From: Bradyrhizobium manausense | GTDB lineage: Bacteria > Pseudomonadota > Alphaproteobacteria > Rhizobiales > Xanthobacteraceae | DNA length: 64,000 nucleotides | Direction: 5' to 3' | NCBI RefSeq assembly: GCF_001440035.1 | Contig: NZ_LJYG01000112.1 | Coordinates: forward strand, 411,151 to 475,150 | Shown: positions 5,978-47,007 of the stretch, one piece after another | How the letters are laid out: each line of letters begins with the position of its first letter | Position numbering within the stretch: the first letter of the stretch is position 1 | Program-made: the position numbers and the translations under genes | Notes under the pieces: model-generated | Told to the model about the DNA's origin: nothing | Seen by the model: only the letters and a program-made list of their open reading frames with translations | Database searches by the model: none

Positions 5978-6286
5978 TCAAGCCCGCGCCACGAGGCGTG
6001 GACGGAAGACCGACTGGATGGTCGGCGCCTGTGCAGCAGCCAGCTTTCGCGCAGACCTGCGCCGCGGAATGAAGAAGCTGCTCACGACGATCGGCTCGAA
6101 ATCGCCCAGCGCGGTCCGCTCCTTCACCAGCAGGCTCATGACCGAGCGCATCTTGATGACTTCCTGCGCCACGAAGCTGCAGTTCTCATCGCGGTTGATC
6201 TGCTCGTGCATGATCGCCTCAGCCTCGCGCATGCTGACGCGAAGCGCTCTGATGGTCTTGCGGATGTCGTTGATGCGGTTGTCCAT
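5978..6286 (-). CDS. Unknown 102-residue protein behind a LexA-type site
   Basis: The product is small, basic and helical. An N-terminal amphipathic stretch (NRINDIRKTIRALRVSMREAEAIM) is followed by HEQINRDENCSFVAQEVIKMRSV and a basic tail containing IPRRRSARK. No enzymatic motif is visible, and the single Cys sits in the RDENCSF segment. The Arg/Lys-rich C-terminus would suit nucleic-acid contact, but this is inference only. The ATG at 6286 has a strong GGGAGG ribosome site. The longer frame to 6433 would run across the regulatory site and is rejected. A GTTC-N7-GTTC element 29 bases upstream suggests control by the DNA-damage (SOS) repressor LexA. Confidence 0.7.
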   Translation of the reverse strand: MDNRINDIRKTIRALRVSMREAEAIMHEQINRDENCSFVAQEVIKMRSVMSLLVKERTALGDFEPIVVSSFFIPRRRSARKLAAAQAPTIQSVFRPRLVARA

Positions 6287-6640
6287 GGCTGCCTCCCTCT
6301 CGGTCAAAGCATAAGAACAAAACATGAACAAGATGTCAATCACCGCCGCGACCAGTTGCGGTGTCACGCGCGATCCGCCGACGGCGCCACTGCACGTGCA
6401 CTGAGATGCTTGCCGACAAATTAGACAAGTCACCCGCTATCCGGAAATCGCAGGGCTCGTGAGGAGCGCCCTGCGTTCGACCTCAGCTGCCGATCTAACC
6501 TCCCGTGCAGCCACCGGATTTCTTGCTGAACGGGCTCGCCGCACGGTGGCGCCGGGCGCGCTTGCTGCTGCGCAAATCAACTGGCCCAAAATTCGCAATG
6601 ACGTTGCAAGGCTTGGCAATGGCGCAGAGCGGAGAACGTC
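6287..6640. other. Divergent intergenic region
   Basis: This 354-base gap separates the LexA-boxed small gene (minus) from the bicupin gene (plus). Apart from the LexA-type site at 6315-6329, it contains a perfect ten-base palindrome TGCACGTGCA at 6391-6400, whose role is unknown. No coding frame of convincing composition and no RNA gene is seen. Confidence 0.5.
6315..6329 (-). promoter_or_regulatory. LexA-type SOS box (GTTC-N7-GTTC)
   Basis: On the minus strand this reads GTTCATGTTTTGTTC, an exact match to GTTC-N7-GTTC, the direct-repeat operator known for alphaproteobacterial LexA. It ends 29 bases before the ATG of the unknown 102-residue gene, where a repressor would overlap the promoter or leader. 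A direct repeat of this length can arise by chance in 64 kb, so its placement is the main support. Confidence 0.65.
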
Positions 6641-46443: not shown

Positions 46444-46530
46444 ACACGCTGGTTGATGTTATGACAATATGTATGACGCAGAAGTCTCAGATCCTTGACG
46501 CCGTTGTCGCCCCCATTTCATGGCATTGCG

Positions 46531-47007
46531 ATGAAGCTTGATAAGATCGACATCAGGATTTTATGCGAACTGCAGAAGAACGGGCGGATTTCCAACGTCG
46601 AGCTCGCAGAGCTGATCAACCTTTCTCCGAGCCCGTGCCTGATGCGCGTGAAGAGGCTCCAGACGGAAGGTTTCATCACCGGCTATTCCGCCCAGATTGA
46701 CGTTTCCAAGCTCGGCCAAACTCTGACTGTCTTCGCCGAAATCACCCTCAAGAATCATCGTCAGATCGATTTCGCGCGCTTTCTCACGACGATCGAGAAG
46801 ATCGATTCCGTGGTCGAGTGCCATCTCGTTTCGGGCGGATACGACTATCTCGTCAAATTCATCACGGCCGGGATCAGCGAGTACCAGGCGGTCATGGAAC
46901 GCCTGGTCGAGATGGATATCGGCATCGACAAATATTTCAGTTTCGTCGTGCTGAAATCGCCGATCGTGAAGTCCCATTTGCCGCTCGAAAGCATCTTCAA
47001 TAGCTGA
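46531..47007 (+). CDS. Lrp/AsnC-family transcriptional regulator
   Basis: A 158-residue regulator. The N-terminal helix-turn-helix is LDKIDIRILCELQKNGRISNVELAELINLSPSPCLMRVKRLQTEG at residues 2-50. The C-terminal RAM ligand domain includes FAEITLKNHRQIDFARFL and CHLVSGGYDYLVKFIT. Lrp-type proteins usually respond to an amino acid and control its catabolic genes. Embedded between oxidase and aminotransferase genes, this one is the likely regulator of the block (inference). It is convergent with the aminotransferase gene, with 16 bases between stops. Confidence 0.93.
   Translation: MKLDKIDIRILCELQKNGRISNVELAELINLSPSPCLMRVKRLQTEGFITGYSAQIDVSKLGQTLTVFAEITLKNHRQIDFARFLTTIEKIDSVVECHLVSGGYDYLVKFITAGISEYQAVMERLVEMDIGIDKYFSFVVLKSPIVKSHLPLESIFNS

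Follow-up and report, generated by a model that had tools for sequence, protein, structure and literature searches.

Bradyrhizobium is a genus of soybean symbionts, and the locus considered here lies in a 64,000-nucleotide stretch of Bradyrhizobium manausense DNA (the window, analysed at its full length). A small gene in it follows a sequence of the form GTTC-N7-GTTC, raising two questions: whether the gene belongs to the DNA-damage response governed by LexA, and what kind of protein it would then contribute. A preliminary description made from the letters of the sequence had reported a 102-residue protein with this box 29 bases before its start. The reading frame is as described there and the box is indeed present upstream, but 28 bases, not 29, separate it from the ATG. 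The elements of the locus are as follows:

5978..6286, minus strand: gene for the 102-residue protein, with its ATG at 6286 and its stop ending at 5978 (open reading frame and translation)
6315..6329, minus strand: candidate LexA/SOS box GTTCATGTTTTGTTC (GTTCN7GTTC), a motif match kept in relatives
6334..6339, minus strand: TTGACA, −35-like, assigned by eye, conserved in at least 90% of 28 syntenic sequences
6311..6316, minus strand: TCTTAT, −10-like hexamer overlapping the 3' edge of the box, assigned by eye, conserved in the syntenic sequences
6292..6298, minus strand: AGGGAGG, ribosome-binding-site-like, assigned by eye, its GGAGG conserved in the 28 syntenic sequences

The two hexamers are 17 nt apart and, as judged by eye, bracket the box. 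Upstream DNA is variable among the 28 syntenic sequences, except for the block that contains TTGACA, the box, TTATG and GGAGG. A formal σ70 scan of the region upstream of the gene called no promoter, because the rule of the scan requires the second hexamer to have A as its second base.

The bare motif GTTCN7GTTC is found twice in the window against 1.5 sites expected (at least two were obtained in 46 of 100 shuffles), and genome-wide it occurs at 180 sites, compared with 263 for the reversed control. The second match in the window, GTTCTTCTGCAGTTC at 46567-46581, falls within open reading frames; by eye, the one at 46495-47007 (plus strand) resembles an Lrp/AsnC-type regulator, and the motif match is probably due to chance. 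It is the conservation and placement of the box, not the frequency of the bare motif, that exceed chance. A pattern scan of a species-genome collection, covering close relatives only, yielded 54 loci of the window gene's own kind (A-type) within what we call the hairpin family, after the fold predicted for its product. The box starts 43-47 nt before the start codon in all 54 Bradyrhizobium loci; in three of them the match as reported opened only at residue 14, and the start was placed 39 bases ahead of it. The background in the same loci is 10 boxes per 861,978 strand-bases, or about 0.001 per 90-nt window, a comparison in which the 54 loci do not count as independent trials because their sequences are related.

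Retention of the box extends beyond these loci. It is found upstream in 19 of the 20 more distant copies that were chosen and fetched, 13 of the 19 reading GTTCTTATTTTGTTC at −24, and only GTTCACGTTTTGTAC lies upstream of the exception, L148. Homologues in two other genera of the same taxonomic family have it in five of five cases, 10-56 bases before a plausible ATG, and an order-wide search added seven further loci, all with a box, checked out of 16 matching rows. Counted over distinct genes with the N-terminal pattern of the protein family, 97 of 98 carry a box within 70 bases, L148 again being the exception. The preliminary description had made its proposal depend on orthologues keeping the box, and nearly all of them do. 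Given this near-universal retention in relatives, the window gene is therefore very probably a DNA-damage response gene.

Several features of the genome connect this operator class to LexA. GTTCN7GTTC is the published LexA motif of Caulobacter (PMC12700426). LexA scores above the cut-off in the window's genome (G000) and in 31 of 31 genomes of the genus, and GTTCATGATTTGTTT, together with a GAAC-N7-GAAC site, is present upstream of lexA in all 30 loci read, one of the 31 genomes having given no locus. The window's box, GTTCATGTTTTGTTC, differs from the lexA-upstream GTTCATGATTTGTTT at two bases, while GTTCATGATTTGTTC, which precedes 20 distinct hairpin-family genes, differs from it at one; the recA gene of the window's genome has GAACATATTGCGAAC upstream. 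A refined motif, GTTCNNNTTWTGTTC, picked after the sites had been inspected, has 14 sites in this genome compared with none for the reversed control. Three of the 14 adjoin Ku genes (one assigned by Pfam, two by likeness), one lies between two SRAP genes, two precede hairpin-family genes (the window copy and the C104 copy) and two precede genes of a second small-protein family, the L079 type; no known SOS gene was assigned to the remaining six. The Ku-adjacent sites suggest that LexA may also control end-joining genes. Box conservation and likeness to the lexA-upstream site both support the LexA control that had been proposed for the window gene, making it highly likely at the level of sequence.

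Other observations were made at sites of this kind. The Ku genes at L068, L176 and L177 (G000:C16:100646, C32:55194 and C47:215464) diverge from their GTTCNNNTTWTGTTC sites, and opposite Ku at L068 and L176 lies a gene for a small protein (MxDRPASWRMPxPKQMEKL...), present also at L178 and partly at L058, for which no significant Pfam match was found. At L175 (G000:C32:50727-50741) two SRAP (SOS response associated peptidase) genes diverge from either side of the box GTTCTTGTTATGTTC. At L123 (G000:C108:59051-59065) a 46-residue reading frame (MTVEKQREVIRLWNQLRK...), with no Pfam match, begins 31 bases past a GTTCTCATTTTGTTC box. Small proteins matching only the DNA-binding part of LexA were seen at L151 and, in several copies, in G017, G025 and G028.

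The product of the window gene is conserved to about residue 66, beyond which it continues as a basic, disordered tail that varies in sequence and length across the family. Purifying selection is evident over codons 1-66 (median dN 0.048 and dS 0.328 against 26 syntenic loci; 19, 11 and 46 variable columns at the three codon positions), with a median pairwise dN/dS of 0.11 over 1,423 pairs. Among 21 family members M1, D2, R9, L15, R16, M19, E23, R47, L53 and G61 are invariant, and D33, D35 and C36 nearly so. AlphaFold2, supplied with a 21-row alignment, predicts helices at residues 2-31 and 37-59 that form a two-helix hairpin, with 60 residues at a pLDDT of at least 90 and residues 77-102 below 50; the helical character attributed to the protein earlier is thus borne out in the model. 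That it has no recognised domain also holds, there being no match in Pfam, NCBIfam or PADLOC and a best PHROG match, to a PHROG of unknown function, at E 0.01. When the 21 members were compared with Pfam at E values up to 10, six families were returned, each by one member of the 21 and the best at E 0.05, and a structure search with the predicted hairpin gave no match at E 0.001 or better.

The protein had further been called basic, with a charge suited to nucleic-acid binding. This is true of the tail (net charge +8 for residues 67-102) but not of residues 1-66, whose net charge is 0, and in 64 A-type sequences the hairpin averages −1.5 and the tail +7.0, with a minimum of +4. Because the hairpin is neutral to slightly acidic and the basic charge resides only in the disordered tail, the hint of nucleic-acid binding is weak.

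Homologues are widespread in the genus and sparse beyond it. Of 98 genus genomes, 94 have a homologue, 51 have two or more and four have none, and only 53 contain a copy that shares 52% identity or more with the window protein; the second, more distant copies share 31-47% identity over roughly the first 60-90 residues. A search of the taxonomic family found homologues in 10 of 119 genomes, five of these in two other genera, and the order-wide search found matches in 10 of 297 genomes, none outside the family. Records titled Bradyrhizobium account for 53 of the 54 A-type loci. The other, L012 (JAUEPE010000050.1), is titled Frankia sp. RB7, probably a mislabelling of the organism, since the locus on it is that of a Bradyrhizobium. 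The A-type loci divide into 27 of type A1 (L001-L026 and L052), which have at least one neighbour gene in common with the window, a cupin gene in 26 of them, and 27 of type A2, which have none. One A-type copy is on plasmid pNK6c with a LigD-like gene annotated beside it, and apart from that gene no DNA-repair neighbour of the A2 copies was recognised by eye in the gene clusters inspected. No relative of the hairpin protein was found in phage records or viral contigs. The occurrence of paralogues under the same kind of operator suggests several variants of one SOS effector design.

Many of these genes have a partner. P2, a conserved gene of about 75 codons with the motif EGWCxxHVQAIxVAIDQYAEAALGNRxxFLNKPxSIG, lies directly downstream of the hairpin gene in 20 of 27 A2 loci, in three of five C-type loci (L140, L141 and L147, of L140-L142, L144 and L147) and in none of the 27 A1 (window-type) loci; 17 of the 30 L079-type loci also have it. 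Across the taxonomic family it was found in seven of 149 genomes, which belong to two genera, and matches reach nine per genome, some of them fragments. P2 has no Pfam or PADLOC match, and its model shows helices at moderate confidence (mean pLDDT 72) with no significant fold match.

The proteins of the L079-type family (L079, L120 and L208-L237) are small and show a hairpin-like pattern, MPTLEFIRSEIEHMR...LQRAGI.... A box precedes 13 of the 30 loci when starts are picked automatically; when they are chosen individually, 10 of 19 loci have one, and of the nine that lack it six belong to a [MD]-GLDHVR-like subgroup. Homology between this family and the hairpin family is not claimed: a profile comparison aligned 62 co-linear columns at a probability of 7.3% and an E value of 0.0049. 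At the B locus of G000 (L130, C104) the hairpin gene and a gene of the Pfam family DUF3072, on which a literature search found no paper, are divergent, with the box between them. A DUF3072-like gene is likewise divergent over an SOS-type box at L130 and L167-L170, and a second small hairpin-like frame follows downstream. Such a second frame comes after the first in eight of 20 loci examined, and in genus g26 it occurs in four of four loci, where a similar divergent gene is also present. The layout suggests an SOS cassette that recurs, although it is unproven that the small-protein families are akin. It is an even call whether Bradyrhizobium and its close relatives possess an unrecognised SOS effector system of this design, in which several paralogous or analogous hairpins, each with its own LexA operator and often in a two-gene operon with the partner of about 75 residues, would be different hairpins in one conserved arrangement, and the window copy a partnerless member between the same neighbours.

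For the window gene itself we favour, with considerable confidence, the reading that it is a LexA-repressed SOS gene of Bradyrhizobium for a small hairpin protein. LexA bound to GTTCN7GTTC between the −35-like and −10-like elements would block transcription. On DNA damage, RecA-stimulated cleavage of LexA would free the promoter, and derepression would allow a small, soluble hairpin protein to accumulate. The hairpin, perhaps dimeric, might then dock on some component of the replication, division or repair machinery and modulate it while the SOS response is under way, and the basic tail could make weak contact with nucleic acid or with an acidic surface. We hold this picture of the protein's action tentatively, as one possibility that we would not bet on; that the window protein is an SOS effector binding another protein is a guess.

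Two other accounts concern the box. A chance motif before an ordinary hypothetical gene would agree with the motif frequency in the window, which equals chance; conservation at one position in 54 of 54 loci, set against a background of 0.001 per window, rules this out, and its probability is next to nil. Alternatively, the box could be real and yet be bound by another repressor, for example a small protein matching only the DNA-binding domain of LexA. Matches below the cut-off that cover just the N-terminal portion of the LexA model do occur in nine of the 31 genus genomes, G000 included, but LexA itself is above the cut-off in all 31, the same operator class lies upstream of lexA in 30 of 30 loci, and there are motif sites at recA, Ku and SRAP genes. 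We consider a different repressor very improbable.

The remaining accounts accept SOS control and differ on the protein. An SOS-induced nucleic-acid-binding protein, in which tail and hairpin would bind DNA or RNA as a small nucleoid or RNA-chaperone factor, would suit the positive charge of the tail in the window protein and throughout the 64 A-type proteins. The helical arm of seryl-tRNA synthetase, which binds tRNA, is among the structural look-alikes as well. These points are offset by a conserved hairpin that is neutral to slightly acidic, by a disordered tail whose sequence and length vary, and by hairpin matches that are generic, so that we judge the account unlikely, if still worth weighing. 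Division inhibitors are a usual class of small SOS proteins, and the SOS-type promoter predicted at the window gene would fit a soluble inhibitor of cell division, functionally equivalent to SidA/DidA of Caulobacter or SulA of E. coli. Against this, the protein lacks any segment of membrane-spanning length, and the DivIC match is at chance level (E 0.078, in one of 21 members); we regard such an inhibitor as rather improbable. Hairpin and P2 could instead form a toxin-antitoxin-like or selfish two-gene cassette. The adjacency of P2 to most A2 genes, its presence in over half of the loci of the second small-protein family, the number of P2 matches per genome with fragments among them, and the copy on plasmid pNK6c are all in keeping with this. 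Yet P2, the sole partner sought, adjoins none of the 27 A1 genes, whose neighbours are nevertheless kept; the window copy is a single gene, which therefore counts against a toxin-antitoxin-like role; and PADLOC, phage records and viral contigs gave neither a match nor a relative. A cassette of this kind is decidedly improbable. The LexA-repressed gene for a small hairpin protein thus stays our preferred reading.

The predicted hairpin can be set beside known structures. SSV1 D-63 shares its two-helix arrangement (Z 9.1, rmsd 1.1 over 58), as does the seryl-tRNA synthetase arm (Z up to 9.0), and Tsi2 and DUF683 are generic antiparallel helical hairpins of the same arrangement. Their Foldseek E values are 1.1 or worse, Z scores of 8-9 are usual for helical hairpins, and many unrelated proteins resemble a hairpin this small. 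The CsoR/FrmR helical regulators (DUF156) are of similar size, and FrmR (Z 7.5) and CsoR (Z 7.3) match the predicted hairpin within the range expected for any helical hairpin. A weak likeness to CsoR around 'D-x-D-C' appeared in a profile search of PDB sequences at E 0.38; this is not significant, and no metal-repressor family was among the Pfam matches of the 21 members at E values up to 10. The metal ligands of CsoR/FrmR proteins are Cys-His-Cys, with His and Cys 25 and 29 residues after the first Cys, whereas the window protein (P0001) has Gly61 and Pro65 at these distances from Cys36.

SidA, DidA, SulA and SosA are, like the window protein, tiny, and the genes of SidA, SulA and SosA have a LexA-controlled promoter. 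Inhibitors of the SidA/DidA type have a membrane-spanning segment, whereas the window protein is a charged hairpin without one, its longest run free of K, R, D and E, as counted by eye, spanning residues 82-94 of the disordered tail, 13 in all; no sequence relation to these proteins was shown. DidA is reported to be SOS-independent.

The closest comparison is with the alphaproteobacterial LexA/SOS regulon. The literature searched, which took in few subscription papers, described neither the Bradyrhizobium SOS regulon nor the hairpin family, a negative that extends no further than those papers. A family of small proteins that is strongly conserved, operated by LexA and accompanied by paralogues and a recurrent partner would be a concrete, testable addition, and Bradyrhizobium would answer DNA damage with effectors unnamed in the catalogues searched. 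The regulon as published for Caulobacter (PMC12700426) uses the same GTTCN7GTTC operator, and sites of this motif in the window's genome precede lexA and recA and accompany Ku and SRAP genes. The product of the window gene differs in matching no curated family. The regulatory kind, a LexA operator, is well known, while the protein family and the design of the cassette appear to be new.
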